A stretch of 36,264 bases of DNA from an uncultured Sphingomonas sp. (GTDB lineage: Bacteria > Pseudomonadota > Alphaproteobacteria > Sphingomonadales > Sphingomonadaceae): assembly GCA_913775025.1 (NCBI GenBank), contig CAJYJW010000227.1, forward strand, positions 1 through 36,264. The letters are read 5' to 3'. The position numbers were made by a program, and so were the translations under genes. Of this stretch, positions 6,099 to 25,374 are shown in pieces. The notes beneath the pieces were generated by a model. That model did not search any database. It saw only the letters and a program-made list of their open reading frames with translations, and had not been told where the DNA came from. Position 1 is the first letter of the stretch. Each line of letters starts with the position of its first letter.

Positions 6099-6123
6099 TA
6101 TCCCGCCACCGGAGCCTTCTGCC

Positions 6124-7185: not shown

Positions 7186-7213
7186 CGGAGCCGCCGGTAA
7201 CCGGGCGTTGACG

Positions 7214-9796: not shown

Positions 9797-9815
9797 GGCG
9801 TCGGTCTCCGGGGGA

Positions 9816-11334: not shown

Positions 11335-12429
11335 TCAGTTGAGCGGCATGCCGAGTGCGTCGGCCACCGCCGCGTGGCGGATCCTGCCGCCCGACACGTT
11401 GAGCCCCGCGGCGAGATGCGGATCCGCCGCCATCGCCGCCTCCGCGCCCATATTCGCCAGCCGCAGCGCGAAAGGCAGCGTCGCATTGTTGAGTGCGAAG
11501 GCGGAAGTACGCGCCACCGCGCCCGGCATGTTGGCGACACAATAATGAAGCACGCCATCCACCTCGAACACCGGATTCTCATGCGTAGTCGCATGGCTCG
11601 TCTCGAAGCAGCCGCCCTGATCGATGGCGATATCGACCAGCACCGATCCGCGCTTCATCGTCTTCACCATCTCGGCGGTGACGAGCTTCGGCGCGGCGGC
11701 GCCCGGCACCAGCACCGCGCCGATCACCAGATGCGCCTGCTTCACCGCTGCCGCGATCGCGGCCTTGGAGGCGTAGGCCGTCTTGATCTGCGAGGAGAAG
11801 AACATGTCCAGCTCCGCCAGCCGGTCGTTATTGATGTCGTAGATGGTCACGTCGGCGCGCATGCCGACCGCCATCTGCGCGGCATTGATGCCCGATACGC
11901 CGCCGCCCAGGATCGCGACCTTCGCCGGCGCGACGCCCGGCACGCCGCCCAGCAATACGCCCCGTCCGCCTTGCTCCTTCTCCAGATAATGCGCGCCGAC
12001 CTGTACGGACATGCGGCCGGCCACCTCCGACATGGGCTTCAGCAGCGGCAGCCCGCCGCGCGGCGCCGTCACCGTTTCATAGGCGATGCAGGTCGCGCCC
12101 GAACGGACGAGGCCTTCCGCCTGTGGCTTGTCGGCGGCGAGGTGGAGGTAGGTGAAGAGCAGGTGATCGGGGCGGAGCAGCGCAATCTCGGAGGCCTGCG
12201 GCTCCTTGACCTTCACGATCATGTCGCTGCCGGCGAAGACGGCGGCGGCATCGGGCAGGATGGTGGCGCCTGCATCCACATAATCCTGATCCTCGAAATC
12301 GATGCCGCCGCCGGCCTTCGTCTCCACCACTACCTCATGCCCGGCGGCCACCAGCTCGGCGACCGAGGGGGGCGTCAGGCCGACGCGATATTCGTGGTTC
12401 TTGATTTCCTTTGGAACGCCGACGCGCAT
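11335..12429 (-). CDS. ald: Alanine dehydrogenase
   Basis: The 364-residue enzyme interconverts L-alanine with pyruvate and ammonia using NAD, in the cytoplasm. The N-terminal MRVGVPKEIKNHEYRVGL is the family signature, with the pyruvate-binding arginine. TYLHLAADK carries the catalytic histidine and the substrate region follows. GGGVSGINAA is the Rossmann nucleotide loop, and the length is normal for the family. ATG 12429 is preferred to in-frame starts seven codons upstream, because GGAGAGAC precedes it and homologues begin MxxGVPKE. It diverges from an Lrp/AsnC gene, the usual arrangement in which that regulator controls ald in response to alanine. In this setting it could return alanine released from peptides to pyruvate. 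Confidence 0.96.
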   Translation of the reverse strand: MRVGVPKEIKNHEYRVGLTPPSVAELVAAGHEVVVETKAGGGIDFEDQDYVDAGATILPDAAAVFAGSDMIVKVKEPQASEIALLRPDHLLFTYLHLAADKPQAEGLVRSGATCIAYETVTAPRGGLPLLKPMSEVAGRMSVQVGAHYLEKEQGGRGVLLGGVPGVAPAKVAILGGGVSGINAAQMAVGMRADVTIYDINNDRLAELDMFFSSQIKTAYASKAAIAAAVKQAHLVIGAVLVPGAAAPKLVTAEMVKTMKRGSVLVDIAIDQGGCFETSHATTHENPVFEVDGVLHYCVANMPGAVARTSAFALNNATLPFALRLANMGAEAAMAADPHLAAGLNVSGGRIRHAAVADALGMPLN

Positions 12430-12561: not shown

Positions 12562-13002
12562 ATGGACGAGACGGACCGCAAAATTCTCGCGTCTCTAGCG
12601 GAGGACTCGGCGGGAACCAACGATGCCTTGGGCGCGCGCGTCGGCCTGTCTCCTTCGGCGGCCCATCGGCGCGTGAAGGCGCTGGAGGCGGCCGGGATGA
12701 TCCTGGGCTACCGCGCCCGGCTATCCGCTGCGGCGCGAGGCAATCCCTCCACGGTCTTCGTCCAGGTGACGCTCGTCGACCAGCGGCGGCAGACGATGGA
12801 GGCGTTCGAGGCGGCGCTGCGCCATACGCGTGAGGTGCGCGAGGCGCATCTGATGAGCGGTGTGTCCGACTATCTGCTCAAGGTGCTGGTGCCCGAGACG
12901 GACAGTTACGAGCGTATTCACCGCGTCATCCTGTCCGCCCTGCCGGGCGTCCACCGGCTCGTGTCTCAGTTCACCATCCGCACGCTGGAAGCCGGGGACT
13001 GA
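12562..13002 (+). CDS. Lrp/AsnC-family transcriptional regulator
   Basis: The 146-residue regulator begins MDETDRKILASL, the canonical start of the Lrp winged helix-turn-helix. A recognition-helix region (G-L-S-P-S-A-A-H-R-R-V) follows at about 29-40. A C-terminal RAM domain then holds A-H-L-M-S-G-V-S-D-Y-L-L-K-V, the effector-binding part. ATG 12562 has an AGGAG site upstream. The divergent alanine dehydrogenase is the probable target and alanine the probable effector. It ends 14 bases before the convergent stop of iorB. Confidence 0.93.
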   Translation: MDETDRKILASLAEDSAGTNDALGARVGLSPSAAHRRVKALEAAGMILGYRARLSAAARGNPSTVFVQVTLVDQRRQTMEAFEAALRHTREVREAHLMSGVSDYLLKVLVPETDSYERIHRVILSALPGVHRLVSQFTIRTLEAGD

Positions 13003-13006
13003 GGGT

Positions 13007-13034
13007 GGGGGCCAGATCAGGCGGCGCGGCCCCC
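13007..13034. terminator. Weak hairpin between the convergent Lrp gene and iorB
   Basis: GGGGGCC (13007-13013) and GGCCCCC (13028-13034) can pair as a seven-base GC stem with a 14-base loop that contains the iorB stop codon. There is no T-run in either direction. It could slow transcription arriving from both sides; confidence is low. Confidence 0.35.
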
Positions 13035-14537
13035 GCAGGCAAGCCCCTGCTGCAACGCCTCGCCACGATCGTCCTTCAACGCGGCCTCCCGCAGCGTACG
13101 CACCCGCTCCGCCGCGTCCGGCGTGCCGACCAGTCCGCGCGCCGCGCCGACGACGGCGTGGAAGTTGCGCAGGCCGCGCTCGAACGTGTCGCTATAGCCC
13201 TTGATGAGCGTCTGGGTCAGCGCGATTTCCGCCGCCAACGCGGCATCGCGCGGCGCGATCTCGCGGATCAGCGCCAGCCAGTCCTCGATCCTTGCCTGTT
13301 CCTCGGCGTAACGCAGCGTGGAACGGCGCATCCCCCGCATGCCGGCCAGCAGGCGCAGCAGCAGGAACCACCGTAGGCTGGTGGTCTCGACGTGCCGGCC
13401 CTTGGTAAAGAAGCGCTCCAGCCACGTGCGGAGCGCGGGCCGCGCGAGGATCGCGCCGCCGATCCCGCGCGGCAGCGTCTCGCACACCTCGCGCAGGCGG
13501 GGATGCATATATTCGGTGACGTGGAGCAGTTGCGCATCGTTCACGCGCACTTCCTTCGCCACTCGCACGCTGCGGGTCGCGCGCACTTTCAGGTCGGCGA
13601 CGCGGATCGTGTCCTCATAGGCCATCCACAGCGCCAGATGCCGCGCGACGGCGGCGGTGAGGCGATGCGCGTCCTGCCCATCGTCCACCGCCGCGATGGC
13701 GACAAGCCGATCAAGATAGACGCCGGCATAGGCCGCGTCCTGATAATCCATGAGCCGGCGCACGCCTTCCAGCGCGATCGCGTGCGCAGGGATGGGCAGG
13801 GTGGCGGCGATCCGATCGGCCAAGGCCCGGCCGGCCGGCGTCGTGGGCGCGGGCGGCATGGCCGCCGCCTCCACGGCCGTGCGCACCTCGACCGCGGATG
13901 CCTCGCCGGTGGCGAACCCCTTGAGGTTGGCGGGCACCGCCTTGCCGCCATGGCGGATCGCATTTTCGAATGCCTCGCGCGGGAAGGGGAGCGCGCCGCT
14001 GCCGGCCAGCGCGCCGAACATCACCGAGCTGATGACGCTGCCGGCGCGGTTGGCCGCCGCATCCATGTCGAACCCGACGAATCGCTTCGCCCGCCGCTCC
14101 GCTGCCGCGAGGATGCGATCGGATGCGCCGGTGCCGTCGCCGCGCGCGGACTTCTCGGAGATGGCGTAGATGCGGTGGGTGGAACCGATCAGCGTCGTCC
14201 TGTCGTCGGTCACGAAGCCGCGCAGGATCGCGCGGCCCGCCTCCATCAGCTCGGAGGCGATCACCACGTCCACGTCGCCCGGCACCGGGGTCAGCGCCAG
14301 CACCGGATCGGGCCGGTTCGCGCCCGCGTCACGCCGGCGCACCATCTCGATATAATAGACCGTCGAGCCGGTGCGTTGCGCCACGCCTGGCACCGACGTG
14401 CCTTGCGCCACATAGCCGTTGCTGTTTGCCAGATCGATGATCCAGTCCGCCAGCACGCCGCCGCCCTGCCCGCCGAGCGCGAGGATGGCGACAGTGATGC
14501 GGTCGCGGTCCGCCGGGATCGTCGCAAGCGTCGTCAT
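13017..14537 (-). CDS. iorB: Indolepyruvate-type 2-oxoacid:ferredoxin oxidoreductase, long beta subunit
   Basis: The 506-residue protein carries the gamma-type domain of 2-oxoacid:ferredoxin oxidoreductases at its N-terminus (I-L-A-L-G-G-Q-G-G-G-V-L-A-D; G-V-A-Q-R-T-G-S-T-V-Y-Y, about residues 14-60), which helps bind CoA and the thiamine intermediate. Archaeal IorB ends near 200 residues; this one continues with about 300 more, the long form seen in proteobacteria. Its ATG overlaps the iorA stop by one base (TGATG), so the subunits are coupled. Together they oxidatively decarboxylate an aryl 2-oxoacid to a CoA thioester with ferredoxin as acceptor. Context suggests isatinate to 2-aminobenzoyl-CoA instead of indolepyruvate. 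Confidence 0.88.
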   Translation of the reverse strand: MTTLATIPADRDRITVAILALGGQGGGVLADWIIDLANSNGYVAQGTSVPGVAQRTGSTVYYIEMVRRRDAGANRPDPVLALTPVPGDVDVVIASELMEAGRAILRGFVTDDRTTLIGSTHRIYAISEKSARGDGTGASDRILAAAERRAKRFVGFDMDAAANRAGSVISSVMFGALAGSGALPFPREAFENAIRHGGKAVPANLKGFATGEASAVEVRTAVEAAAMPPAPTTPAGRALADRIAATLPIPAHAIALEGVRRLMDYQDAAYAGVYLDRLVAIAAVDDGQDAHRLTAAVARHLALWMAYEDTIRVADLKVRATRSVRVAKEVRVNDAQLLHVTEYMHPRLREVCETLPRGIGGAILARPALRTWLERFFTKGRHVETTSLRWFLLLRLLAGMRGMRRSTLRYAEEQARIEDWLALIREIAPRDAALAAEIALTQTLIKGYSDTFERGLRNFHAVVGAARGLVGTPDAAERVRTLREAALKDDRGEALQQGLACGGRAA

Positions 14538-16675
14538 CAAAAGGCCCTCGCGGCGATGGATCGGCTGTGGCGGCGCTGCAACCACGCGATCGCGCCGCGC
14601 GACATGCGGGTGCGCCAGCGTTCCCACCGGCCGGGATTGGTGACGATCGCCGCCTTGTAGAAGGACGGGCAGAGGACGGCGGCATGCGCCACCTCGCCGC
14701 AGTTGCCGCAGCCCACGCAGCTGTTGTCGATATGTGTCACCGGATGCTGACGCAGCGGATCGGGATTGTCGCGAATGCTGAGCGAGGGGCAGCCCGACAG
14801 GCGGATGCAGGCATGATCGCCGGTGCACGTGTCCGGATCAACGCCGAACCGCTCGCGCACCACGCGCTTGCCCTCCTTGGCGGCCTTGGCCATCAGCGGC
14901 TTTACCCGGCGCTGCTTGTTGAGCATGCATTCGGATTGCGCGACGATGACCTTCGGCCCCTTCTCCGGGCTGGTCAGCGCCTCGCGCAGCGTGTCCCGCA
15001 TCCGCGCCACGTCGTAGGTATGAGTCAGCGTGCGCGCCCAGCCGACGCCCAGCCCCCGCGCCGCGCGCTCGATCGGGTTATTGGTCTTGCGCGTTGCGTT
15101 CTCGGCGCGCGACGAGAGAATGTCCTGCCCGCCGGTGGCGGCGGAATAGCCGTTGTCGACGATGATGGTGACGGTATCGTCCTGATTGAACACCGCATTG
15201 CCGATGCCGGAGGTGAGGCCGTTGTGCCAGAAGCCGCCGTCTCCCATCATCGCGACCGCGCGGCGGCTGCCCTCGCCTTCCTTGGGCTTGAAGGCGGATG
15301 CGGCAGCGGTGCCCAGGCCGTAGCCCATCGTGGTGTTGCCGATGTGGAACGGCGGCAGGATCGAGAAGAGGTGGCAGCCGATATCGGCGGAAACGTGCAG
15401 TTCGCCCAATTCCTCCTGCACCAGTTTCATGGCGGAGAAGATCGGTCGCTCGGGGCAACCGGTGCAGAAGCCGGCGGGGCGCTGCGGCACCTCGCGCGCC
15501 AGGTCTGGCTCGGCGGGCAGCGGCAGCACCGTCTCCGGCGCGCGGGCCGGCGCCCACGCCTTTAGAAAGGCGATCACGCCGTCGCGCAGCACTTCGCCGC
15601 TATATTCGCCGGCGCGCGGCAATATGTCCTTGCCGATCACGCGCGTCTGCAGATCGGCGCGGCGCAGCAGCGTGTTGAGTTCATGCTCGATGAATTCGGG
15701 TTGCCCCTCCTCGACGATCAGCACCGCTTTCTTACCCGCGCAAAAAGCGGTCACCTCATCCGGGATCAGCGGATAGGTGACGTTCAGGCAGTAGATCGGC
15801 ACCTGCGCGGCACCGTGCGCGTCTGACAGGCCGGCAAGCTCCAGCGCGCGGTTCAGCGTGTTGTAGAGCCCCCCCTGCACGATGATGCCGATATCGTCCC
15901 GCTCCGGCCCGAACCATTCGTTCAGCCGGTTCTCCGCCACGAAGCGGAGCGCGGCGGGCCAGCGGCGCTCGATCTTCTCGCGCTCGTGCAGGAAGTTGGC
16001 GGGCGGCAGCACGATGCGGCTCAGGTCGCGGCGGGGGGCGGCGGCGGCCTCCCCCACGGTGAGCGGCGGACGGCGGTTGTCGCGCGCGGTGAACTGGCCG
16101 GTGACGTGGCAGGCGCGCACGCGGAGCTCGATCATCACCGGCGTGTTCGACGCCTCGGACAGCTCGAACCCGCGCTCCACCATGTCGACGATGCTGGTGA
16201 GGTTGGGCCGCGGATCGAGCAGCCACATCTGCGACTTCATCGCAAAGGCGTGCGTCCGCTCCTGCATGATCGAGGAGCCTTCGCCATAATCCTCGCCCAC
16301 GATGATGAGCGCGCCGCCCGTCACGCCGCCGCTGGCGATGTTCGACAGCGCATCGGAGGCGACGTTGGTGCCGACCACCGATTTCCACGCCACCGCGCCA
16401 CGCAGCGGATAGTTGACCGAGGCGGCGAGCATAGCGCCCGCCGCCGCCTCGCTCGCGTTCGATTCGAAGTGGACGCCCAGTTCGCGCAGCAGCGGATCGG
16501 CGTCGGCGAACACGTCCATCAAGTGGCTGATCGGGGAGCCCTGATAGCCGCCGACATAGGCGACGCCGGCCTGCAGCAGTGCCTTGGTGACGGCGAGGAT
16601 GCCCTCGCCCTCGAACACCTCGCCCGCGCCCAGGCGAAGCTGCTCCACCTCTTTCTTGAACGAACGCTCCGCCAT
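14537..16675 (-). CDS. iorA: Indolepyruvate-type 2-oxoacid:ferredoxin oxidoreductase, alpha subunit
   Basis: The 712-residue catalytic subunit has a pyrimidine-binding domain (Y-V-G-G-Y-Q-G-S-P-I-S-H near 40), a thiamine diphosphate/Mg motif M-G-D-G-G-F-W-H-N-G (D479) with a downstream N-G-Y-S-A-A-T-G-G, and a C-terminal ferredoxin-like region. The last cluster set is C653-V-G-C656-G-N-C659 with C669. The first set is unusual: C617, C623 and C629 only, in a C-x5-C-x5-C-P layout. ATG 16675 has GGAG eight to nine bases upstream, and only four bases separate it from the stop of the isatin-hydrolase-like gene, so the three genes form one operon. The enzyme makes an acyl-CoA from a 2-oxoacid, CoA and oxidised ferredoxin. 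No ferredoxin gene is in the window. Confidence 0.92.
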   Translation of the reverse strand: MAERSFKKEVEQLRLGAGEVFEGEGILAVTKALLQAGVAYVGGYQGSPISHLMDVFADADPLLRELGVHFESNASEAAAGAMLAASVNYPLRGAVAWKSVVGTNVASDALSNIASGGVTGGALIIVGEDYGEGSSIMQERTHAFAMKSQMWLLDPRPNLTSIVDMVERGFELSEASNTPVMIELRVRACHVTGQFTARDNRRPPLTVGEAAAAPRRDLSRIVLPPANFLHEREKIERRWPAALRFVAENRLNEWFGPERDDIGIIVQGGLYNTLNRALELAGLSDAHGAAQVPIYCLNVTYPLIPDEVTAFCAGKKAVLIVEEGQPEFIEHELNTLLRRADLQTRVIGKDILPRAGEYSGEVLRDGVIAFLKAWAPARAPETVLPLPAEPDLAREVPQRPAGFCTGCPERPIFSAMKLVQEELGELHVSADIGCHLFSILPPFHIGNTTMGYGLGTAAASAFKPKEGEGSRRAVAMMGDGGFWHNGLTSGIGNAVFNQDDTVTIIVDNGYSAATGGQDILSSRAENATRKTNNPIERAARGLGVGWARTLTHTYDVARMRDTLREALTSPEKGPKVIVAQSECMLNKQRRVKPLMAKAAKEGKRVVRERFGVDPDTCTGDHACIRLSGCPSLSIRDNPDPLRQHPVTHIDNSCVGCGNCGEVAHAAVLCPSFYKAAIVTNPGRWERWRTRMSRGAIAWLQRRHSRSIAARAF

Positions 16676-16679
16676 GACC

Positions 16680-17459
16680 CTACTCCGAAACGAAGGCGAG
16701 GACGCGCAAGGGACTGCCCGAGCCGCCCTCGATCTTGAGCGGCGCCGAGACGAGGACAGCGCCCAACGGCGGCAGTTGATCGAGGTTGGTGAGGCATTGC
16801 AGGCCGTAGCGGCCGGCGCCGTGGAACAGCGTGTGCGCCGGATAGGCGGGCTCCAGCAGGTGCGCCTGCCCCGCATCGGTGCCGATCGTCTCCACGCCGA
16901 AACCATGCGCGTCGCGTTCCTCGATCAGGAAACGCACCGCCTCCGCCGAGGGGCCGGGGGTATGCGCGCCATCCTCGCGCCGGTTGGTGTAGCCCTCGGC
17001 GTCGCGCTTGGACCAGTCCGTGCGCAGCAGCACCCAATGGCGAGGCGGGATGCGACCGTGCTCGCCCTCCCACGCCTCGATATCGGCGACGGTCAGCAGA
17101 TAGTCCGGATCGGCGGCGGCCTTGGCCGACACGTCGATCACGACGGCGGGGGCTACGAAATCGGCGGGCGCGATCGCATCGACGGTGTTGGCGTCGAGGT
17201 CCCGCCCCGTCACCCAGTGGATCGGTGCGTCGAAGTGCGTGCCGGTATGCTCGCCGACGGTGAAGTTATTCCAGTACCAGGCGACGCCGCGATCGTCGTA
17301 GCGCGAGATTTCCTCGCGCTTGAAGCCCGATGTCTGACCGAAAGGCTCCGGCAGGACGAGGAGGGGCGTATCCTCCGAAAGCGTCATGGTGAGGTCGATC
17401 GTCCGTATCCGGCGGGCCGCGACGGCCTCGGCGAACTCGCGCAGCATCGTGGTGGACAT
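16680..17459 (-). CDS. Cyclase-family hydrolase, probable isatin hydrolase
   Basis: The 259-residue protein has the Mn/Zn motif of the cyclase/kynurenine-formamidase superfamily, H71-T-G-T-H75-F-D77-A-P-I-H81. I favour isatin hydrolase over KynB because long stretches match my memory of the Labrenzia enzyme: A-W-Y-W-N before the motif, A-A-D-P-D-Y-L-L-T, W-V-L-L-R-T-D-W-S-K-R, I-G-T-D-A-G-Q-A and a C-terminal S-A-P-L-K-I-E-G-G-S-G-S-P. Isatin hydrolase opens isatin to isatinate. ATG 17459 is chosen over ATG 17474 because GAGGAG lies seven bases before it and overlaps the other start. It is the first gene of the operon with iorA and iorB, diverges from a MarR gene, and has a palindrome 34 bases upstream. 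Confidence 0.75.
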   Translation of the reverse strand: MSTTMLREFAEAVAARRIRTIDLTMTLSEDTPLLVLPEPFGQTSGFKREEISRYDDRGVAWYWNNFTVGEHTGTHFDAPIHWVTGRDLDANTVDAIAPADFVAPAVVIDVSAKAAADPDYLLTVADIEAWEGEHGRIPPRHWVLLRTDWSKRDAEGYTNRREDGAHTPGPSAEAVRFLIEERDAHGFGVETIGTDAGQAHLLEPAYPAHTLFHGAGRYGLQCLTNLDQLPPLGAVLVSAPLKIEGGSGSPLRVLAFVSE

Positions 17460-17493
17460 GGGGATACTCCTCATCCTCGAACGTCGGCGGAAT

Positions 17494-17508
17494 GTTTAAG
17501 CTTGAAAC
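17494..17508. promoter_or_regulatory. Operator candidate GTTTA-AGCT-TGAAAC
   Basis: This is an imperfect palindrome with the TTTA-N4-TRAA form (core 17495-17506), placed 34 bases before the isatin-hydrolase-like start and about 70 before the divergent MarR gene. Only one base departs from the core seen at 3597 and 18096. It is well placed for repression of both directions by a MarR dimer. Confidence 0.5.
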
Positions 17509-17537
17509 GTGCATTTGCAACTTAGTCTTTCACGTTT
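17505..17537. repeat. Inverted repeat AAACGTG ... CACGTTT
   Basis: Perfect seven-base arms (17505-17511 and 17531-17537) are separated by 19 bases in the divergent spacer between the isatin-hydrolase-like gene and the MarR gene, and overlap the operator candidate on its right side. This may be a second operator or a bipartite regulator site. Confidence 0.35.
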
Positions 17538-17577
17538 TCGCATTGTCGGCAAGGGGGCGTGGCGCTAGGCGATCCGC

Positions 17578-18054
17578 GTGGAAGACACGCGCGACAATCG
17601 CCGGCTTGGCGATCCGGGGACCGACGACTTTCAGGTCGACCGTTACCCCTTCTATTTGCTCAACCGCCTCGTCGGCCGCTACAATGCGGTGATCGCGGCG
17701 CGTCTGCGCGGCATTGGGCTCGACGTGCCGGCATGGCGCGTATTGATGATCCTCGGCGAGCGCGCGCCGCGCGGCGTCCGCGAATTGGCCGATAATGCGG
17801 TGATCCCACTTTCCACGATGACGCGAATCGTCCAGCGGATGGCCGCCGCCGGTCTCGTGGCCGCCGCCGCCAGCGATGAGGATGCGCGGATCACGACGGT
17901 GTCGCTGCTCGCGCTGGGCAACGAAAAGCTGGCGGAGGCCAGGGCGATCACCGCGCCGGTCTATGCGAAGATCATCCGCGGAGTTTCCCGACGCGATTTC
18001 GATCAGCTGCTCAGGCTGCTCGGCCAGTTGCAGGCCAACCTCGACGGTTCCTGA
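17578..18054 (+). CDS. MarR-family transcriptional regulator (first copy)
   Basis: The 158-residue winged-helix regulator has the MarR pattern: an N-terminal dimer helix with F-Y-L-L-N-R-L-V, a helix-turn-helix around residues 60-90 (R-E-L-A-D-N-A-V-I-P-L-S-T-M-T-R-I-V) and the wing with D-E-D-A-R. MarR proteins usually repress catabolic genes and release DNA on binding a phenolic or aromatic-CoA ligand. GTG 17578 is the earliest possible start, since an in-frame TAG lies at 17566-17568; the ribosome site is weak. It sits between the isatin-hydrolase operon and the fused monooxygenase and is well placed to control both through the palindromes at 17494 and 18096. Confidence 0.88.
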   Translation: MEDTRDNRRLGDPGTDDFQVDRYPFYLLNRLVGRYNAVIAARLRGIGLDVPAWRVLMILGERAPRGVRELADNAVIPLSTMTRIVQRMAAAGLVAAAASDEDARITTVSLLALGNEKLAEARAITAPVYAKIIRGVSRRDFDQLLRLLGQLQANLDGS

Positions 18055-18095
18055 GGCGATCGATCACAGGACGCTTGCGCGCATCGCCCATTTAT

Positions 18096-18107
18096 TTTAG
18101 GCCTAAA
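18096..18107. promoter_or_regulatory. Perfect palindrome TTTAGGCCTAAA before the fused monooxygenase
   Basis: This exact 12-base palindrome lies 18 bases before ATG 18126 and just before the GGAGG ribosome site. A regulator bound here would block transcription or early elongation of the monooxygenase gene. It shares TTTA-N4-TAAA with the site at 3597. Confidence 0.6.
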
Positions 18108-18125
18108 CCATCGGAGGTAACGGTC

Positions 18126-20414
18126 ATGCGTGTAGCGTGTCTTGGTGGTGGCCCGGCCGGATTGTATTTCGCCATATCCATGAAGCGCCGCGATCCGGCG
18201 CACGACGTGGTGGTGGTGGAGCGCAACAAGGCCGGCGATACATTCGGCTGGGGCGTCGTCTTTTCGGATCAGACGCTGGCCAATCTGCGCGAGAACGACC
18301 CCGAGAGCGCCGAGACGATCGCCGCCGAATTCGCCCATTGGGACGATATCGAGGTGGCCGTCGGCGATCGATCGGTCCGTTCGGGCGGGCACGGTTTCAT
18401 CGGGATCGGCCGCAAGCGGCTGCTCAACATCCTGCAGGACCGGGCGCGCGAAGTGGGCGTCCGCTTGGAATTCGAGACCGAGATCGACGCGAACCTCGAT
18501 GCGTGGCGCGATTACGACCTGATCGTCGTGGCGGACGGGGTGAACAGCCGCATCCGCACCGAATATGCCGATCGCTTCGAGGTCGATATCGACACGCGCG
18601 CCAACAAGTTCATCTGGCTGGGCACGCCGCGCCTGTTCGAGGCCTTCGCCTTCCTCTTCGAGGAAACCGAGCACGGCTGGATCTGGGCGCACGCCTATCG
18701 CTTCGATGAAACGCGGTCGACCTTCATCGTCGAATGTTCGGAGGCGACGTGGCGGGGGCTGGGCTTCGACACGATGGAGCAGGCCGATACCATCGCCGCG
18801 TGCGAGCGCATCTTCGCACGCCACCTGAACGGGGAGCCGTTGCTGACCAACGCGGCGCACCTGCGCGGTTCGGCGGCGTGGATCAATTTTCGCCGCGTGC
18901 TGTGCCGCCGCTGGTCGTTCGACAATGTCGTGCTGCTGGGCGATGCCGCCCACACCGCGCATTTCTCGATCGGGTCGGGCACCAAGCTGGCGCTGGAGGA
19001 TGCGATCAAGCTGGCGCAGGTGATGGATCGCACCGCGCCCGACGATCGCGATGCGATGGCCGCCGCCCTCCAGGACTATCAGGAGGAACGCCACACCGAG
19101 GTGCTCAAGATCCAGAATTCGGCGCGTAACTCGACCGAATGGTTCGAGACGCTGGATCGCTACATCGGTTTCGAGCCGGAGCAGTTCGCCTACTCGCTGC
19201 TCACCCGATCGCAGCGGGTCAGCCACGAAAATCTGCGCCTGCGCGATCCCGACTGGCTCGGCCGCGTGGAGGACTGGTTCTCGCGCCGCGCGACGGGTGC
19301 GGAGGCATCGGGCGTGCGGCCGATGTTCGCGCCGTTCCGTATGCGCGACCTGACGCTCGCCAATCGCGTGGTGGTGGCGCCCGTGCTTACCTATGCGGCG
19401 GGGCCGGATGCGACGCCGACCGACTTTCACCTCGTCCACTATGGCGCGCGGGCGCTGGGCGGGGCGGGGCTCGTCATCACCGAGATGACCGCCGTGTCGG
19501 AGGACGGGCGCATCACGCTCGCCTGCCCGGGGCTCTATACCGATGCGCATGTAGCGGCGTGGCGACGCGTGACCGATTTCGTCCACGCCAACGGCGCGAC
19601 GCGGATCTGCGCGCAGATTGGCCATGCGGGCGCACGCGGCAGCACGCAGCCGGGCGATGTCGAGCCGGACCGGCCTCTCGTGGACGGCGGCTGGCAGACG
19701 CTCGCCGCCTCGGATCAGGCCTATCGCGATGGCGGGCAGGTGCCCCGTGCGATGGACGAGGCGGATATGGCGCGCGTGATCGAGGCGTTCGCCGCCGCCG
19801 CCCGACGTGCCGCCGATGCAGGCTTCGACATGATCGAGCTGATGGCCGGGCACGGCTTCCTGCTTTCAAGCTTCATCACGCCCGTGCTGAACCGTCGAAC
19901 GGACGACTATGGTGGCAGCCTGGAAAATCGCATGCGCTTCCCGCTTTCCGTGGTGCGCGCTGTACGGTCCACCTGGGCCGGGGATCGGCCGCTGGCGGTG
20001 CGCATCTCCGCCAACGACTGGGTAGGCGAGGCGGGGGTCACGCCGGCGGAGGCGGTGAAGATCGCCCGGATGCTGGCCGATGCGGGCGTGGACCTGATCG
20101 ACGTATCGGCGGGCGAGACCGCGCCCGGCGCCCGGCCCGTCTATGGCCGCATGTACCAGACGCCGTTCGCCGACCGCATCCGCAACGAGGCGGGATGCGC
20201 GGTGATGGCGGTGGGCAACATCTTCGAGGCGGATCACGTCAATTCGATCCTGGCGGGCGGGCGTGCCGATCTCGTCGCCCTTGGCCGGCCGCATCTGGCG
20301 GACCCGAACTGGACCCTGCGCGCCGCCGCGGAAACAGGGCACGAGGCGCTGGCGGTGCCCCCGGTCTATCGCTGGGGGATGGCGCAACTTGGGCAGATGT
20401 TGCATCGCCGATAG
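18126..20414 (+). CDS. Fused FAD aromatic acyl-CoA monooxygenase / old-yellow-enzyme oxidoreductase
   Basis: The 762-residue protein joins two flavoenzymes. Residues 1 to about 390 are a class A FAD monooxygenase with G7-G-G-P-A-G12, an A-D-G-V-N-S-R DG motif and V-L-L-G272-D273-A-A-H. Residues from M400 are an old-yellow-enzyme barrel (F-A-P-F-R-M-R-D; Q-I-G-H-A-G; N-R-R-T-D-D-Y-G-G-S). This length and order are those of 2-aminobenzoyl-CoA monooxygenase/reductase and of bifunctional salicylyl-CoA 5-hydroxylase, which hydroxylate C5 of the CoA-activated ring. Position 573 is Met, in MAGH576, where OYE relatives have the first of two catalytic histidines, so ring reduction may be weakened. A GGAGG site precedes ATG 18126. 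Next to iorAB, 2-aminobenzoyl-CoA is the favoured substrate; salicylyl-CoA is the alternative. Confidence 0.85.
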   Translation: MRVACLGGGPAGLYFAISMKRRDPAHDVVVVERNKAGDTFGWGVVFSDQTLANLRENDPESAETIAAEFAHWDDIEVAVGDRSVRSGGHGFIGIGRKRLLNILQDRAREVGVRLEFETEIDANLDAWRDYDLIVVADGVNSRIRTEYADRFEVDIDTRANKFIWLGTPRLFEAFAFLFEETEHGWIWAHAYRFDETRSTFIVECSEATWRGLGFDTMEQADTIAACERIFARHLNGEPLLTNAAHLRGSAAWINFRRVLCRRWSFDNVVLLGDAAHTAHFSIGSGTKLALEDAIKLAQVMDRTAPDDRDAMAAALQDYQEERHTEVLKIQNSARNSTEWFETLDRYIGFEPEQFAYSLLTRSQRVSHENLRLRDPDWLGRVEDWFSRRATGAEASGVRPMFAPFRMRDLTLANRVVVAPVLTYAAGPDATPTDFHLVHYGARALGGAGLVITEMTAVSEDGRITLACPGLYTDAHVAAWRRVTDFVHANGATRICAQIGHAGARGSTQPGDVEPDRPLVDGGWQTLAASDQAYRDGGQVPRAMDEADMARVIEAFAAAARRAADAGFDMIELMAGHGFLLSSFITPVLNRRTDDYGGSLENRMRFPLSVVRAVRSTWAGDRPLAVRISANDWVGEAGVTPAEAVKIARMLADAGVDLIDVSAGETAPGARPVYGRMYQTPFADRIRNEAGCAVMAVGNIFEADHVNSILAGGRADLVALGRPHLADPNWTLRAAAETGHEALAVPPVYRWGMAQLGQMLHRR

Positions 20415-20446
20415 CAGAGGCCGCAAGGCAGGCGACGGGGCAGAGG

Positions 20447-20941
20447 ATGACGGGCGCAGGGATACGCGAGAAGCATGACGGCGCGCTTGCGCGTCGGCTC
20501 GACGTGCGGGTGTGGCTGCGGCTGCTGAGCTGCTCGACGGTGATCGAGAAGACGTTGCGCCGGCAGTTCATCGAGCATCACGACACGACCTTGCCCCGTT
20601 TCGACGTGCTCGCCACGCTGGAGCGGCATCCCGACGGAATCGCGATGGGCGAGCTGTCGCGTACCTTGCTGGTGTCGAACGGCAACGTCACCGGCCTCGT
20701 CCGGCAGCTGGAGTCCTCGAATCTCGTCGTCACGCGGCCCGCGCCCGATGACCGGCGTTCCTCCATCGTCGCGCTGACCGAGACGGGGCGCGTCCATTTC
20801 GCCGAACTCGCGGCTGCCCATCATCGCCTGATCGGCGAGCTTCTGGGCGGGGTGGGGGAGGAGGAGCTGAAGGCGCTCTATCGCCTGCTCGCCACGGTCA
20901 AAACCTCGATCTTCGCCCGGACCAAGGATGCCGCCGAATGA
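20447..20941 (+). CDS. MarR-family transcriptional regulator (second copy)
   Basis: The 164-residue protein has an N-terminal dimerisation segment, a helix-turn-helix (G-E-L-S-R-T-L-L-V-S-N-G-N-V-T-G-L-V, about 65-85) and the MarR wing with the D-D-R-R-S signature. It lies 32 bases after the fused monooxygenase, and its stop overlaps the thioesterase start by four bases (ATGA), so all three genes read as one unit. A repressor inside the operon it controls would give autoregulation, with a pathway CoA ester as a possible ligand. Regulators of similar form sit in benzoyl-CoA-type and hydroxycinnamate gene clusters. Which of the two MarR proteins binds the palindromes cannot be told from sequence. 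Confidence 0.9.
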   Translation: MTGAGIREKHDGALARRLDVRVWLRLLSCSTVIEKTLRRQFIEHHDTTLPRFDVLATLERHPDGIAMGELSRTLLVSNGNVTGLVRQLESSNLVVTRPAPDDRRSSIVALTETGRVHFAELAAAHHRLIGELLGGVGEEELKALYRLLATVKTSIFARTKDAAE

Positions 20942-21360
20942 GTTTCGCCGTTCACCGGATCGTGCGCTTCGCCCATGTCGATGCCGCCGGGATCGTCTTC
21001 TATCCGCGCTATTTCGAGATGCTGAACGATGCGGTGGAGGATTATTTCGCCGCGCTCGGCGTGTCCTTCGCGGACATGCATCTCCGACGCGGGATCGGCG
21101 TGCCGACCGTGAAGCTGGACGTGGAGTTCAAGGCGCCGAGTCGGCTGGGCGACCGGCTGGAGTTCCGGCTGGACGTGGCGGCGGTGGGCCGCAGCTCCGC
21201 CACGCTCGATGTGGCCGTGCTGGGCGAGGATGGCGAACGCCTGCGCGCACGCGTGACGCTCGTCTGCATGGATCTGGAGAGCGGCCGCCCGAACGCTTGG
21301 CCCGACGATATGCGGCCCCGGCCCGATGCGCCGGCGGAGGAAGGCGTCCGGGCGGCCTGA
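20938..21360 (+). CDS. 4-hydroxybenzoyl-CoA thioesterase-type hotdog protein
   Basis: The 140-residue hotdog-fold acyl-CoA thioesterase carries the family active site F-A-H-V-D15-A-A-G-I-V-F-Y-P-R-Y-F, in which the aspartate is the catalytic carboxylate of the Pseudomonas 4-hydroxybenzoyl-CoA thioesterase group. It overlaps the preceding MarR gene by four bases. In this cluster it would release the hydroxylated aromatic acid (5-hydroxyanthranilate or gentisate) from its CoA thioester before ring cleavage. The stop codon at 21358-21360 sits in the loop of a strong hairpin that probably ends the operon. Confidence 0.88.
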   Translation: MSFAVHRIVRFAHVDAAGIVFYPRYFEMLNDAVEDYFAALGVSFADMHLRRGIGVPTVKLDVEFKAPSRLGDRLEFRLDVAAVGRSSATLDVAVLGEDGERLRARVTLVCMDLESGRPNAWPDDMRPRPDAPAEEGVRAA

Positions 21361-21373
21361 CCGCCCGGACGCC
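21343..21373. terminator. Bidirectional hairpin spanning the thioesterase stop codon
   Basis: GGCGTCCGGGCGG (21343-21355) pairs perfectly with 21361-21373 across the five-base loop CCTGA. The loop contains the thioesterase TGA, and the left arm encodes its last residues. Lying between convergent genes, it can end transcription from both sides. No clear T-run follows on either strand. Confidence 0.65.
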
Positions 21374-21380
21374 TCGGGCC

Positions 21381-22292
21381 TCACCCCGCGACGACGGGGT
21401 GGCGCAGACGGCCGATGCCGGCGACCTCACACTCGATCACGTCGCCCGGCCACACCCATTCCTGCGGCGAGCGACCGGCGCCCACGCCCTCCGGCGTGCC
21501 GGTAGCGATGATGTCGCCCGGCTCCAGCGTGATGCCCTGGCTGATATCGGCGATCAGCTCGTCCACCTTGAATAGCATGTGGCTGGTATTCGAACGCTGC
21601 TTCTCGACCCCGTTCACCGTCAGCCACAGATCCATCGTCTGCGGATCAGGAATTTCGTCGGCGGTGACGATGCACGGGCCCATCGGCGCGAACGTGTCCT
21701 GCCCCTTGGAATAGATCCACTGGCCGGCGCGGCGGCAATCGCGCGCGCTCATATCGATGATGACGGTATAACCGAACACGTGGGCGAGCGCCTGCTCGCG
21801 CGTCACGCGCTTGGCCTTGGTGCCGATGATCGCGGCCAGCTCCACCTCCCAATCGAGCTGCTGGGTGATCGCGGCGTTGTGCACGATGGCCTGGTTCGGC
21901 CCGATCACCGAGGTGGGCGGCTTGGAGAAGATCACCGGCTGCTTGGGCAGATCGGGCGACGTATCGAGCGCCGCCGCGCTTTCCGCCACATGATCGATAT
22001 AGTTAAGCCCGATGCCGAAGATATTCTTGCGCGGCCGCGGGATGGGAGCCAGCAAGGTGACGTTGGCGAGCGGCAGCGCGCCGCCGACCGGCCAACGCCC
22101 CTTCGCCTCCGCGATCAGGGCGGAGAGCGTGGCGATCGCCGCCGGCCCCAGATCGATCAGATCGAGCATGCGGTGCGGCAGCGCCTCGCCCGCACGCGCG
22201 CCAAGCTTCGCCACATCGATGACCAGATCGTCGACGAGGACGCCGACGCGGCCTTCCGTTTCGACGGTTGCACGGTAGGTCACGAGACGCAT
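21381..22292 (-). CDS. Fumarylacetoacetate hydrolase-family enzyme (acylpyruvate hydrolase)
   Basis: The 303-residue FAH-fold hydrolase has the metal ligands E149 and E151 in D-W-E-V-E-L and D180 in V-I-I-D-M-S, plus the catalytic-region histidine of G-L-N-Y-I-D-H (H101) and the T-G-T-P-E-G-V-G-A loop. Family members split acylpyruvates such as fumarylpyruvate or maleylpyruvate into pyruvate and a dicarboxylate, the last step after gentisate-type ring cleavage. ATG 22292 follows an AAAGG site. It lies 39 bases after the dioxygenase stop in the same operon. No maleylpyruvate isomerase gene is visible, so this enzyme may act directly on the maleyl isomer or on an amino-substituted equivalent. 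Confidence 0.88.
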   Translation of the reverse strand: MRLVTYRATVETEGRVGVLVDDLVIDVAKLGARAGEALPHRMLDLIDLGPAAIATLSALIAEAKGRWPVGGALPLANVTLLAPIPRPRKNIFGIGLNYIDHVAESAAALDTSPDLPKQPVIFSKPPTSVIGPNQAIVHNAAITQQLDWEVELAAIIGTKAKRVTREQALAHVFGYTVIIDMSARDCRRAGQWIYSKGQDTFAPMGPCIVTADEIPDPQTMDLWLTVNGVEKQRSNTSHMLFKVDELIADISQGITLEPGDIIATGTPEGVGAGRSPQEWVWPGDVIECEVAGIGRLRHPVVAG

Positions 22293-22331
22293 GGCAGGCC
22301 TTTCAGCAGAAATGGTAGGTAGAGACGGGGG

Positions 22332-23459
22332 TCAGGCGTAAAGCGGCTGATGCCCGCCGTTGTCCGCGAACCCTTCGGAACGATAGAGGCCGAGCGCCCG
22401 CATCGTCGGCAGATCGTGGAACGAGAACAGGCACGCGTCCTCGCTGGCCGAGGCATTCGCGTGCTCGTGCCACATCCAGGAGGGGACGACGAAGATGTCG
22501 CGCTCCTTCCAGTCGAGCCGGACGCCGCCGATGATCGAATAGCCGCTGCCCTTGGCGCATTGATAAACGAAATTACCCACCTCGCGGTGCGCCTTGGTAT
22601 GCTCGCCGGGGCGCAGCATCTGCATCGATGCGCCCATCGTCGACATCGGCGGGCCGCCCGTCGCCGGGTTCACATAGTCCATGTGAATGCCGTCGTACGG
22701 CGATCCATCGCTCGCGCCGGCATAGCGCAGCAGCGCTTCATAGGTCGGCGCCCACTCATATTTCAGCAGCGGGGAGTAGCGTTTGGACCATGTCTCGCCC
22801 GCCGGGCGCAACGCGGCATTGCCCCAAGTCGCGGTGGAATCGTCGATCGGGAAGCCGACCGCCTGATTGAGATCGGGATGCACCTCGTAGAAGTTCGCGT
22901 CGAGCGCGTTCATCAGCGGGATGTCGAGCCCGTCCTGCCAGGTGCAGATCGTACCCTCCTCCGCCACGCCATGCTCGTGCCAGGTGCCGTTGGGCGTCAG
23001 CACGAAATCATTGCGCCCCAGCGTCATCCTGTGGCCATCGACGTTGGTGAAAGCGCCGCTTCCTTCCATGATGAAGCGCAGCGCGGAGGCGGAGTGGCGG
23101 TGGCTCGACGCGCATTCGCCGGGCTTCATCACCTGGATGCCGGAATAGAGCCAGCCCACCGCCGCCGTCACGTCGCGCCGGCCGGGGTTGCCGAGATAGA
23201 CGACGCGGCGGCCCGCCTGTTCCGGCGTGACGAGATCGAGCGCGCGCATCACGTGCGGACGTAGCCGATCGTAGCGCCAGACGATGGGCACGGAGCCGGA
23301 CTGCGGCTCCCACGGCTCGATCTTGTTCGCCACCGTCCAGAGCGCGCCGGCGTGCTGATCCTCCAGATCGCGGTAGAAGGCGACGAGATCCTCGGTGTCC
23401 GCGACGTTGGCGCGGCCGGCCACATCCTCGCGATATTGGTCGTACTGCTCGGTCGCCAT
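22332..23459 (-). CDS. Gentisate/salicylate 1,2-dioxygenase-family bicupin ring-cleavage enzyme
   Basis: The 375-residue iron(II) extradiol dioxygenase has two cupin domains. Cupin 1 holds S-S-H120-R-H122-S-A-S-A-L-R-F and T-W-H161-E-H163. These match the three Fe-binding histidines I recall for Pseudaminobacter salicylate dioxygenase (119, 121, 160). Cupin 2 has E-H-T-K-A-H-R-E293-V-G-N, W-H-E-H and L-F-S-F-H-D-L-P-T-M-R-A-L-G. E293 stands where related enzymes usually have a histidine. The enzyme would open a ring bearing a carboxylate and an ortho OH or NH2. ATG 23459 is preferred to the GTG one codon upstream, given GGGAGGG just before it. A TATA-GACT-TAAA site lies 19 bases upstream. Whether it takes gentisate, 5-hydroxyanthranilate or salicylate is open. 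Confidence 0.9.
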   Translation of the reverse strand: MATEQYDQYREDVAGRANVADTEDLVAFYRDLEDQHAGALWTVANKIEPWEPQSGSVPIVWRYDRLRPHVMRALDLVTPEQAGRRVVYLGNPGRRDVTAAVGWLYSGIQVMKPGECASSHRHSASALRFIMEGSGAFTNVDGHRMTLGRNDFVLTPNGTWHEHGVAEEGTICTWQDGLDIPLMNALDANFYEVHPDLNQAVGFPIDDSTATWGNAALRPAGETWSKRYSPLLKYEWAPTYEALLRYAGASDGSPYDGIHMDYVNPATGGPPMSTMGASMQMLRPGEHTKAHREVGNFVYQCAKGSGYSIIGGVRLDWKERDIFVVPSWMWHEHANASASEDACLFSFHDLPTMRALGLYRSEGFADNGGHQPLYA

Positions 23460-23546: not shown

Positions 23547-24476
23547 ATGACGCGGTACAAGGCGGCGGTGGTTCAGGCCGCATCCATTCCCTTCGATCCC
23601 GGCGCCACCGCCACGAAAACGGCGGCGCTGATCCGCGAGGCGGCGGCGGCCGGCGCGCGGCTGGCGGTGTTTCCCGAGGTGTTCATCGGCGGCTATCCCA
23701 AGGGCGCTTCGTTCGGCACGCCCGTGGGCATGCGCAAGCCGGAAGGGCGCGATGCCTTTCTCGCCTATCATGCAGGCGCGGTGGCGCTCGACGGGCCGGA
23801 ATTGGCGATCGTATTGGACGCCGCGCGCGAGACGGGGCTGTTCGTGGTGCTCGGCTGCCTGGAGCGGGACGGCGGGACGCTCTATTGCACGGCGCTGTTC
23901 CTCGACGGGGCGGCCGGAATCGTCGCCAAGCACCGTAAGCTGATGCCGACCGGCGCGGAGCGGCTGGTGTGGGGCTTCGGCGACGGATCGACGATGCCCG
24001 TGGTCGAAACCTCGCTCGGCCGCATCGGCGCGGTGATCTGCTGGGAAAACTATATGCCGGCGATGCGGCTGGCTATGTATGACAAGGGCGTGTCGATCTA
24101 CTGCGCCCCCACCGCCGACGATCGCGACACGTGGGTGCCCTCGATGCGCCACGTCGCGCTGGAGGGGCGCTGCTTCGTGCTTTCCGCCTGCCAGCACATC
24201 ACCCGCGCGGCCTATCCGGCGGACTATGAGTGTGCGCTGGGCGACGACCCGGATCTCGTGCTGATGCGGGGCGGCAGCGTGATCGTCAGTCCGCTCGGCC
24301 AGATTCTTGCCGGGCCGGATTTCGAAGGCGAGACGATCCTTTACGCGGACATCGATCTGGAAGAGGTGGTGCGCGGCAAATATGACTTCGACGTCGTCGG
24401 TCACTATGCCCGCCCCGACATATTCCGCCTGAGCGTGGACGAGGCGCCCAAAACCGCCGTTGTGCGGCAAGGCTGA
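23547..24476 (+). CDS. Nitrilase
   Basis: The 309-residue carbon-nitrogen hydrolase has the catalytic triad E44 (V-F-P-E-V-F), K131 (K-H-R-K-L-M-P-T-G-A-E-R) and C165 (V-I-C-W-E-N-Y-M-P). The K-L-M-P-T and C-W-E-N contexts are those of true nitrilases, including plant and bacterial arylacetonitrilases, which turn nitriles to acids plus ammonia. ATG 23547 follows GGAG at 23537-23540; the frame opens upstream without a ribosome site. It diverges from the ring-cleavage operon and is followed after five bases by a flavin reductase-like gene. Indole-3-acetonitrile or another arylacetonitrile would fit the setting, but that is inference. Confidence 0.92.
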   Translation: MTRYKAAVVQAASIPFDPGATATKTAALIREAAAAGARLAVFPEVFIGGYPKGASFGTPVGMRKPEGRDAFLAYHAGAVALDGPELAIVLDAARETGLFVVLGCLERDGGTLYCTALFLDGAAGIVAKHRKLMPTGAERLVWGFGDGSTMPVVETSLGRIGAVICWENYMPAMRLAMYDKGVSIYCAPTADDRDTWVPSMRHVALEGRCFVLSACQHITRAAYPADYECALGDDPDLVLMRGGSVIVSPLGQILAGPDFEGETILYADIDLEEVVRGKYDFDVVGHYARPDIFRLSVDEAPKTAVVRQG

Positions 24477-24481
24477 GCCCC

Positions 24482-25135
24482 TTGGAATTCGACCTTCGAC
24501 AGCTGGAAAAATCCGAGCGGTACAAGATCCTCGGCTCTTGCGTCACGCCACGGCCGATCGCCTGGGTCACGTCGCGTTCGGCGGATGGCGTGCTGAACGC
24601 CGCGCCCTACAGCTTCTTCAACGTCATGGGCGATACGCCGCCGACGATCGCGCTCGGTCTGCTCGCAAGCGCGGTGCCGGGGTTCAAGGACACCGCCGCC
24701 AACATCCGCGCCACGGGCGAATTCGTGGTGAACCTGGTGGACGAGGGCCATGCCGAGGCGATGAACCTCACCTGCATCGATGCCCCGCCCGAGGTGGACG
24801 AGATCGCGCTGGCCGGACTCGAAACCGCGCCCAGCCGCGTCGTCGGCCCGCCGCGTATCGTGGGCGTGCCCGCCAGTTTCGAATGCCGCACGCTGCATTT
24901 TCTGGAGACGGGGCCGGCGCAATCGGTCGTGATCGCCGAGGTGCTGGTGGCGCACGTCGCGGATGCCGTGATCCTCGATCCCGATCGGCTGCATTTTGAT
25001 ACGCCGGCGATGAAGCTGATCGCGCGCCTGCACGGCGCGGGCTGGTACAGCCGGCAGACCGATACCTTCCAGATGACGCGACCGACATGGGCCGAACGGA
25101 CGGCGACCGAAGCGGCAACGCGCGAACGCCGCTGA
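24482..25135 (+). CDS. Flavin reductase-like (DIM6/NTAB) FMN-binding protein
   Basis: The 217-residue protein has the split-barrel flavin reductase fold: C-V-T-P-R-P-I-A-W-V-T-S near residue 20, A-P-Y-S-F-F-N-V, and E-F-V-V-N-L-V-D around 80. These proteins bind FMN and either reduce it for a partner monooxygenase or act as small oxidoreductases. The C-R-P-I-A branch is often called conserved FMN-binding protein. The start is TTG 24482, five bases after the nitrilase stop, and an AAGG inside the nitrilase end serves as ribosome site. No FMN-dependent monooxygenase is nearby, so the partner is unclear. Confidence 0.8.
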   Translation: MEFDLRQLEKSERYKILGSCVTPRPIAWVTSRSADGVLNAAPYSFFNVMGDTPPTIALGLLASAVPGFKDTAANIRATGEFVVNLVDEGHAEAMNLTCIDAPPEVDEIALAGLETAPSRVVGPPRIVGVPASFECRTLHFLETGPAQSVVIAEVLVAHVADAVILDPDRLHFDTPAMKLIARLHGAGWYSRQTDTFQMTRPTWAERTATEAATRERR

Positions 25136-25326: not shown

Positions 25327-25374
25327 CCCGACCGGGCGGACCCGTCCGAACATCGCATATCCGAGGACATGACC

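Follow-up and report, generated by a model that had tools for sequence, protein, structure and literature searches.

The window analysed here, a stretch of 36,264 nucleotides from an uncultured Sphingomonas sp., carries a gene cluster that probably degrades isatin without an acid:coenzyme A (CoA) ligase, via 2-aminobenzoyl-CoA made by the two-subunit enzyme IorAB, followed by hydroxylation and ring opening. Isatin is a product of indole and of plant auxin. The window covers contig C227 from end to end; the contig belongs to a draft genome of 3.57 Mb (95.96% complete), and the neighbourhood of the cluster ends at the window ends.

In the proposed route an isatin hydrolase, for which homology is strong, would open isatin to isatinate, i.e. 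2-aminophenylglyoxylate, a 2-oxoacid. Its genomic context suggests that IorAB may oxidatively decarboxylate isatinate with CoA to 2-aminobenzoyl-CoA. A fused monooxygenase would, judging from its family and residues, hydroxylate C5 to give 5-hydroxy-2-aminobenzoyl-CoA, its reductase half being putatively disabled, and a thioesterase would free 5-hydroxyanthranilate. Cleavage between C1 and C2 by a gentisate-type dioxygenase would leave a carboxamide at the new end, because C2 bears NH2 and not OH. The FAH-family enzyme is predicted to split off pyruvate, leaving maleamate, from which a C-N hydrolase may remove ammonia to yield maleate; four relatives have a maleate-isomerase homologue as candidate next enzyme. 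MarR proteins would regulate the cluster. Its genes are:

13017..14537, minus strand: iorB-type subunit (POR domain and DUF6537), proposed beta subunit of an arylglyoxylate (isatinate):acceptor oxidoreductase (NF006179, 675.7 bits, cut-off 348; PF01558, PF20169)
14537..16675, minus strand: iorA-type subunit with thiamine diphosphate domain and C-terminal Cys clusters (TIGR03336, 279 bits; PF02775; GDG at 478, Cys 617-669)
16680..17459, minus strand: predicted isatin hydrolase, A type, here called the cyclase (PDB 5nmp, E 4.7e-108; residues and GLQC motif)
17578..18054, plus strand: MarR-type regulator, divergent from cyclase-iorAB (HpaR model, under its cut-off; adjoins the cyclase gene in L028, L030-L037, G186 and G213)
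18126..20414, plus strand: fused FAD monooxygenase/old-yellow-enzyme-like protein, reductase half altered (His to Met, Tyr to Phe; NF006101, 1202 bits; PF01494 and PF00724)
20447..20941, plus strand: second MarR-type regulator (model match)
20938..21360, plus strand: acyl-CoA thioesterase, 4HBT-like (PF13279 over cut-off; TIGR00051, 61.6 bits, cut-off 68.7)
21381..22292, minus strand: FAH-family hydrolase, proposed for the ring-cleavage product (PF01557, E 3.8e-73)
22332..23459, minus strand: gentisate-dioxygenase-like ring-cleavage cupin (3bu7, E 7.9e-168; TIGR02272, 305 bits)
23547..24476, plus strand: C-N hydrolase of the nitrilase branch, proposed amidase for the ring-cleavage carboxamide (PF00795; 6i00, NIT4, E 4.8e-108)
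24482..25135, plus strand: flavin-reductase-domain protein (PF01613; beside the C-N hydrolase gene in G186, G213, G178 and G065)

The cyclase, iorA and iorB form one compact leftward unit with a gap of 4 bp between cyclase and iorA and an overlap of one base between iorA and iorB, which bears out the tight operon seen in a preliminary description of this sequence. The rightward divergent marR, fused monooxygenase, second marR and thioesterase genes are followed by the leftward FAH and dioxygenase genes and then by the rightward C-N hydrolase and flavin-reductase-domain genes. Every gene that the description had named for 13017-23459 is present in the window, and the adjoining fused monooxygenase, thioesterase, FAH hydrolase and gentisate-type dioxygenase are confirmed by family, domain or PDB matches. 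Beyond what it covered, the C-N hydrolase and flavin-reductase-domain genes (23547-25135) recur with the dioxygenase module, and in other genomes the module is also linked to counterparts of the window's upstream half. The order nit-gdo-fah-te-marR2-acmr-marR1-cyc-iorA-iorB is found again in L033, L037 and G186; G213 shares it apart from an SDR-like match inserted between fah and te. Other sphingomonads keep the order of the gene set, which beta- and gammaproteobacteria carry in rearranged form, mostly with no ligase linked to it.

The four best PDB matches of the cyclase are all isatin hydrolases (5nmp, E 4.7e-108, 5nnb, 5nna and 4j0n). According to the accessible part of PMC6117287, the key residues of LaIHA are His69, His73 and Asp75 (metal), His79, Asp193, His207 and a GLQC motif; at an offset of two, read by eye, the cyclase has H71, H75 and D77 (metal), H81, D195, H209 and GLQC at 219-222. 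LaIHA His203, which one passage of the same source names, has no His at the matching offset. On the strength of these PDB matches, residues and motif, isatin hydrolase is the firmest of the predicted assignments in the cluster, and the earlier description of the cyclase as isatin-hydrolase-like is supported. Arylformamidase was considered as another identity and rejected: the cyclase scores 27.5 bits with the model (cut-off 223) and carries the GLQC motif of isatin hydrolase A.

The tie between isatin hydrolase and IorAB was surveyed in an order-level sample of 296 genomes (thresholds of E 1e-60 for IorB, 1e-50 for the cyclase and 1e-40 for a CDGSH-cupin protein described below), a phylum-wide sample of 254 genomes, the own genome being counted in both, and the best 80 of at least 475 relatives' loci, found by IorB alone. 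IorB and cyclase each occur in 56 genomes of the order sample and together in 52, with 10.6 expected (p 4e-48; the genomes are related). They share a contig in 43 of the 52, in 41 of these within 2.5 kb and mostly one gene apart. IorB lacks a cyclase in G010, G017, G036 and G069; the cyclase lacks an IorB match in G011, G040, G089 and G106, in the last three of which the cyclase lies at a contig end with iorA as its neighbour. G011 keeps cyclase, monooxygenase and beta-oxidation genes and holds, without an IorB match, a ligase in the same stretch; the best PDB match of this ligase is the anthranilate-CoA ligase 4wv3 (E 3e-85). The phylum sample contains IorB in 18 genomes, isatin hydrolase in 14 and both in 13 (1.0 expected). 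Among the best 80 loci, isatin hydrolase is present in 59 (46/54 of those of at least 20 kb), the monooxygenase in 18, and a relative of iadD, from the iad locus of auxin degradation, in 27. The monooxygenase occurs in 97 of the 296 order genomes, including 53 of the 56 IorB-positive ones. By these co-occurrence counts IorAB forms a broader family than isatin hydrolase, and the latter is nearly always accompanied by it; with IorB in 52/56 and 13/14 isatin-hydrolase genomes, the association expected from the window alone recurs in both samples. IorB itself lies over the curated cut-off of the IorB-like subfamily NF006179, and IorA under that of TIGR03336, the indolepyruvate:ferredoxin oxidoreductase equivalog (279 vs 651 bits).

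Two IorAB loci are of separate interest. In Variovorax boronicumulans (L025, 13833-24409) IorAB lies near an alpha-hydroxyacid oxidase and an enolase-family protein, a possible hint of mandelate/phenylglyoxylate use by the same enzyme family and of an arylglyoxylate substrate. L072, a contig titled as a Bifidobacterium breve metagenome-assembled genome, carries iorAB and a dioxygenase relative like the proteobacterial ones and is probably misbinned.

The fused monooxygenase exceeds the cut-off of NF006101, named bifunctional salicylyl-CoA 5-hydroxylase/oxidoreductase (1202 vs 1078 bits). We take a 2-aminobenzoyl-CoA monooxygenase/reductase to consist of an FAD-monooxygenase half and an old-yellow-enzyme half, both of which are found here (PF01494 and PF00724). 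Presumably the protein belongs to the family of the Azoarcus evansii 2-aminobenzoyl-CoA enzyme, and the residue roles in its reductase half are assumed to be those of known old yellow enzymes. Relatives are accompanied by one of two downstream modules. Module G consists of dioxygenase and FAH hydrolase, with thioesterase and C-N hydrolase and, in four loci, a maleate-isomerase homologue; it is present in the window, L024, L033, L037, L048, L062, L071, L076, L077, L107, G186, G213, G178 and G065, and L068 has dioxygenase, FAH hydrolase and thioesterase with no monooxygenase or C-N hydrolase match. A cyclase is present in all these stretches except L107 and G065; the latter genome holds both units, with cyclase-iorAB on another contig than the dioxygenase module. 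Module B comprises SDR, enoyl-CoA hydratase, acyl-CoA dehydrogenase and RidA, of which at least two were required at 44% identity.

The His/His/Tyr/Tyr of the reductase half in beta-oxidation-type relatives is not matched by the window protein. In the first set, at least one of the four active-site residues is lost in 13/13 module G loci, all four are intact in 23/23 module B loci, and of four unclassified loci three are intact and L034 is altered (Q/H/F/Y). L034 is a stretch without dioxygenase from the same contig as in G213 (110027 bases) and was left out of the tree. The first His is replaced by Gln in ten module G loci and by Met in the window; it is kept in G178, where a Tyr has become Ser, and in L037, where the other Tyr has become Gly. 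Loci added later agree, with G065 altered (1/1 module G) and intact residues in 28/28 module B and 12/12 unclassified loci; G011 is counted in both sets, and monooxygenase open reading frames of up to 650 aa (first set) or 600 aa (later set) are excluded from the counts. The altered module G monooxygenases form two clades in the tree, both supported at 100/100 and both adjoining intact relatives, and the label needs two changes. Most simply, the alteration would have arisen twice, on each occasion with the dioxygenase, as would follow from a need to deliver an aromatic product. A disabled reductase half would leave the product aromatic for the dioxygenase, and the altered residues favour the aromatic product of C5 hydroxylation that had been proposed. 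Relatives with an intact reductase half possess the beta-oxidation module, mostly with RidA, and would follow the Azoarcus-type fate of 2-aminobenzoyl-CoA, which module B fits; RidA would there deaminate the enamine left by reduction.

The ring-cleavage cupin remains under the cut-off of TIGR02272, the gentisate 1,2-dioxygenase equivalog (305 vs 442 bits). The C-N hydrolase gene adjoins gdo/fah in L033, L037, G186, G213, G178 and G065. The window protein shares 72-73% identity with those of L033 and L037 and 32-35% with those of seven beta- and gammaproteobacterial loci, so that the two groups were probably recruited separately. An amino rather than a hydroxy route is suggested by the chemistry, in which C1-C2 cleavage of 5-hydroxyanthranilate leaves a carboxamide and gives the conserved C-N hydrolase a job; the amidase role of the window protein itself is a guess. 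As an alternative within the same reading, deamination to gentisate may precede ring cleavage, an order reported for Nocardia opaca in the available text of PMC4539516. In Caballeronia, a gene neighbouring the module matches the maleate cis-trans isomerase 4fq7 (E 6e-102), with relatives in L048, L071 and L107. Maleate isomerase as proof of the amino route was rejected; a gentisate route via maleate could use one too.

Twenty-one ligase queries against the 14 dioxygenase-type stretches detected nothing in 11 of them. With the anthranilate-CoA type defined by at least 44% identity to the G011 ligase (the 28 other ligase-positive stretches score at least 443 bits), such a ligase shares the stretch of the monooxygenase in 0/5 module G and 21/27 IorAB-unlinked module B cases of the order sample. 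Six unlinked module B loci lack it; IorB lies elsewhere in the genome in G013, G016 and G199, and G047 and G272 contain a ligase of lower identity (32%). An initial rough tabulation of ligase versus IorB over 63 monooxygenase stretches gave no association (14/34 vs 17/29, p 0.21). The own genome contains 20 AMP-binding matches, none exceeding 30% identity or 168 bits to the G011 ligase. At E 1e-110 none of these proteins matched an aromatic-acid ligase model and 7/20 returned nothing, but this threshold is too strict: with the benzoate-CoA ligase model even the G011 ligase gets no better than 2e-108. Six of the seven and L020, scanned at E 1e-50, showed no benzoate-CoA ligase (among the 25 best matches for two of the proteins); L021, a contig-end fragment of 103 aa, did not form part of that scan. 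By such similarity no aromatic-acid ligase was recognised in the own genome, and a very distant one is possible.

Genes for iorAB are also contained in the iad locus of isatin-forming auxin degradation, as stated in the accessible text of PMC9613470, and isatin, isatinate and anthranilate have been detected for this locus, according to the available parts of PMC9613470 and PMC12633357. The part of PMC12633357 at hand assigns the steps to iadC-K2 and has a nine-gene Variovorax segment yield anthranilate in a locus-deletion strain. Within the text available for both papers, IorAB is given no reaction and the iad work ends at anthranilate. Like the window, the iad loci of Variovorax CL14 and Bradyrhizobium, as far as described there, place iorAB (there iadAB) together with a hydrolase of the cyclase type, iadI, whose annotation is kynurenine formamidase. 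Unlike them, the window has no match to the iadCDE oxygenase or the iadF ligase and adds monooxygenase, thioesterase, dioxygenase and FAH hydrolase; a search of the window with iad genes, including the iadDE oxygenase, gave no match at E 1e-12. In the aerobic 2-aminobenzoyl-CoA pathway of Azoarcus evansii (ligase, monooxygenase/reductase and beta-oxidation), CoA-bound 2-aminobenzoate is likewise hydroxylated by a flavoenzyme, according to the accessible text of PMC4539516. In the window, IorAB would replace the ligase and the gentisate-type dioxygenase the beta-oxidation, and the reductase half is altered. CoA-bound 5-hydroxylation, thioesterase and gentisate-type dioxygenase are all shared with the salicylyl-CoA/gentisyl-CoA pathway of Streptomyces, whose ligase is absent from the window and which lacks the isatin hydrolase, IorAB and C-N hydrolase.

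The indole-isatin-anthranilate-gentisate pathway of Alcaligenes sp. In3 (1983, cited in the accessible part of PMC6221969) is similar in the outline of its chemistry; as cited there, it comes without genes and runs through free anthranilate. The same 2018 review, in the part available, states that the gene of the gentisate branch of the indole route was not revealed. The Alcaligenaceae loci L062 and L077 possess cyclase, IorAB and dioxygenase module, with iadC/iadD relatives alongside. A literature search of open-access texts, with most subscription papers and all supplements outside it, found no account of IorAB converting isatinate or of 2-aminobenzoyl-CoA arising from isatinate. The parts of the cluster are of known kinds, and neither the joint pathway nor the IorAB step was found in that literature. 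To the preliminary description the route as a whole was not known to be described, which agrees with this search, with the qualification that iorAB in an isatin-forming locus was already in print (PMC9613470, in its accessible text). Its outline of the route is upheld for the isatin hydrolase, the IorAB link and the aromatic C5 product, and left out the C-N hydrolase and the upstream half.

Several findings weigh against the proposed route. Some AMP ligase is held by 3/14 dioxygenase-type stretches (G178 and L068, iadF-like, and G186 with 39% identity to an own-genome ligase), and the stretches of L062 and L077 end inside the iad segment, beyond which a ligase may lie. Seven of the 18 IorAB-linked module B loci, all of genus g66, also carry an anthranilate-CoA-type ligase; the missing ligase of the preliminary description thus holds for that type in the five module G stretches and the own genome and fails as a strict rule. 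The difference between 7/18 linked and 21/27 unlinked loci (p 0.013) is weak, the split being post hoc and uncorrected for kinship. L107 has module and IorAB but no cyclase within its 19.7 kb, and only 3/27 IorB loci with an iadD relative show the monooxygenase in their stretch. Among the downstream enzymes, the dioxygenase has its closest solved relative in 3bu7, which bears the name of a gentisate dioxygenase, the C-N hydrolase is nearest to the plant NIT4 nitrilase and 35% identical to the Caballeronia one, and a search for maleate isomerase in the own genome (no positive control) found none. The iadC-K2 segment of PMC12633357, by its name in the text available, excludes iadAB, and an isatin-type intermediate can apparently reach anthranilate without IorAB.

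The same genes could serve salicylate, with the fused protein as salicylyl-CoA 5-hydroxylase, the thioesterase freeing gentisate, gentisate dioxygenase and FAH hydrolase finishing the route, and cyclase-iorAB as a separate neighbour. The name of NF006101, the closeness of the cupin to a gentisate dioxygenase and the separate contigs in G065 fit this reading. We nevertheless regard it as rather unlikely: the aromatic-acid ligase that it calls for is not seen in most module stretches nor recognised in the own genome, the module accompanies cyclase and IorAB in alpha-, beta- and gammaproteobacteria (G065 having both units), and gentisate needs no C-N hydrolase. That IorAB is true to its name and oxidises indolepyruvate or phenylpyruvate, supplied by an aminotransferase at 25369-26544, to arylacetyl-CoA, with the isatin genes as mere neighbours, is unlikely, although TIGR03336 and NF006179 bear such names and homologues of the aminotransferase (56-64%) lie near the module in G286, G214, G203 and G199. 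The aminotransferase is unmatched in the other dioxygenase-type stretches, IorA is far under the equivalog cut-off, isatin hydrolase tracks IorB in two genome samples, and the iad loci to which iorAB belong have indoleacetate as substrate (PMC9613470, accessible text).

A kynurenine route, with the cyclase as arylformamidase, the class V pyridoxal phosphate (PLP) enzyme at5 as kynureninase and anthranilate activated by an unlinked ligase, would account for the presence in the window of a PrnB-like (IDO superfamily) and a kynureninase-like gene and for the alanine dehydrogenase nearby. It is very improbable. Besides the GLQC motif and the low arylformamidase score of the cyclase, at5 reaches 58.6 bits with the kynureninase model (cut-off 246); both models, searched in the window only, stay under cut-off. 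The genome has no tryptophan 2,3-dioxygenase (PF03301), no aromatic-acid ligase was recognised in it, and IorAB would be left without a role.

If the isatin route via IorAB is true, isatinate would be the natural substrate for this IorAB family, and the iad pathway for auxin could be reread, with anthranilate as a possible spill product and 2-aminobenzoyl-CoA as the branch point. Genes would be on offer for the indole-isatin-gentisate route reported in 1983 and known mainly from chemistry so far. The state of the reductase-half residues would become a sequence rule separating hydroxylase-only from reductive fused monooxygenases.

The upstream half of the window contains the following genes:

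8..868, plus strand: SNF-type sodium symporter, cut by the contig end (PF00209; near at5/cdgsh in G006, G026, G036, G073 and G087)
912..2069, plus strand: class V PLP enzyme at5, kynureninase-like, candidate isatin-releasing lyase (PDB 4w91, 'aminotransferase', E 3.3e-23; 1qz9, kynureninase, E 8.9e-23; then desulfurases)
6112..7185, plus strand: CDGSH-cupin protein, candidate indole-ring oxygenase (two PF09360 and PF07883)
7208..8383, plus strand: PrnB-like protein (IDO superfamily), SO4414 type (PF08933, E 2.6e-160; 2nwb/1zee, E 4.6e-140)
8390-11171: two amidohydrolases (relatives beside cyclase-iorAB in L023 and near the CDGSH-cupin gene in L218)
11335..12429, minus strand: alanine dehydrogenase (PF01262/PF05222)
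12562..13002, plus strand: Lrp/AsnC regulator (PF01037)

It is possible, if doubtful, that the whole window encodes a pathway from tryptophan via isatin to the CoA ester that bypasses kynurenine. The sodium symporter and a TonB receptor might import tryptophan or a derivative, and the CDGSH-cupin protein might oxidise the indole ring to dioxindolylalanine, a step in which the PrnB-like protein could assist it or take its place. Retro-aldol cleavage by at5 would yield isatin, which would enter the IorAB route, and L-alanine, to be removed by alanine dehydrogenase. According to the available part of PMC13397446, PLP enzymes run in the opposite direction, coupling L-alanine to isatin, and KynU forms the nucleophile that this requires. 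The Cys residues of at5 are confined to 160 and 176, with none in the C-terminal active-site region, a pattern that argues against a desulfurase; at5 also retains the SGWF stretch known from kynureninase.

The CDGSH-cupin protein occurs in 27 of the 296 genomes, in 24 of them with the cyclase (5.1 expected) and in 23 with IorB; G001, G036 and G037 are without cyclase. Of these genomes, 20/27 (window included) carry an at5 match in the stretch of the CDGSH-cupin gene and 6/27 the SNF symporter, the misses including short contigs. The three recur as a group, often with a TonB receptor, which shares its stretch with monooxygenase, beta-oxidation or cyclase genes in G073, G087, G026, G227 and several g66 genomes. 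L023 has relatives of prnB, cdgsh, at5, m20 and amidohydrolase genes beside cyclase-iorAB. PrnB is found in 7 genomes, of which 5 also have cyclase and IorB; it shares their contig only in the window and G227, besides L023 and L052. Alanine dehydrogenase is not seen in the stretches of relatives except for a 30% match in G013. In L206-L209 the PrnB-like protein adjoins another class V PLP enzyme. In G227 a further cyclase, divergent from the first (36%), is located between at5 and prnB (L158, 16739-17461).

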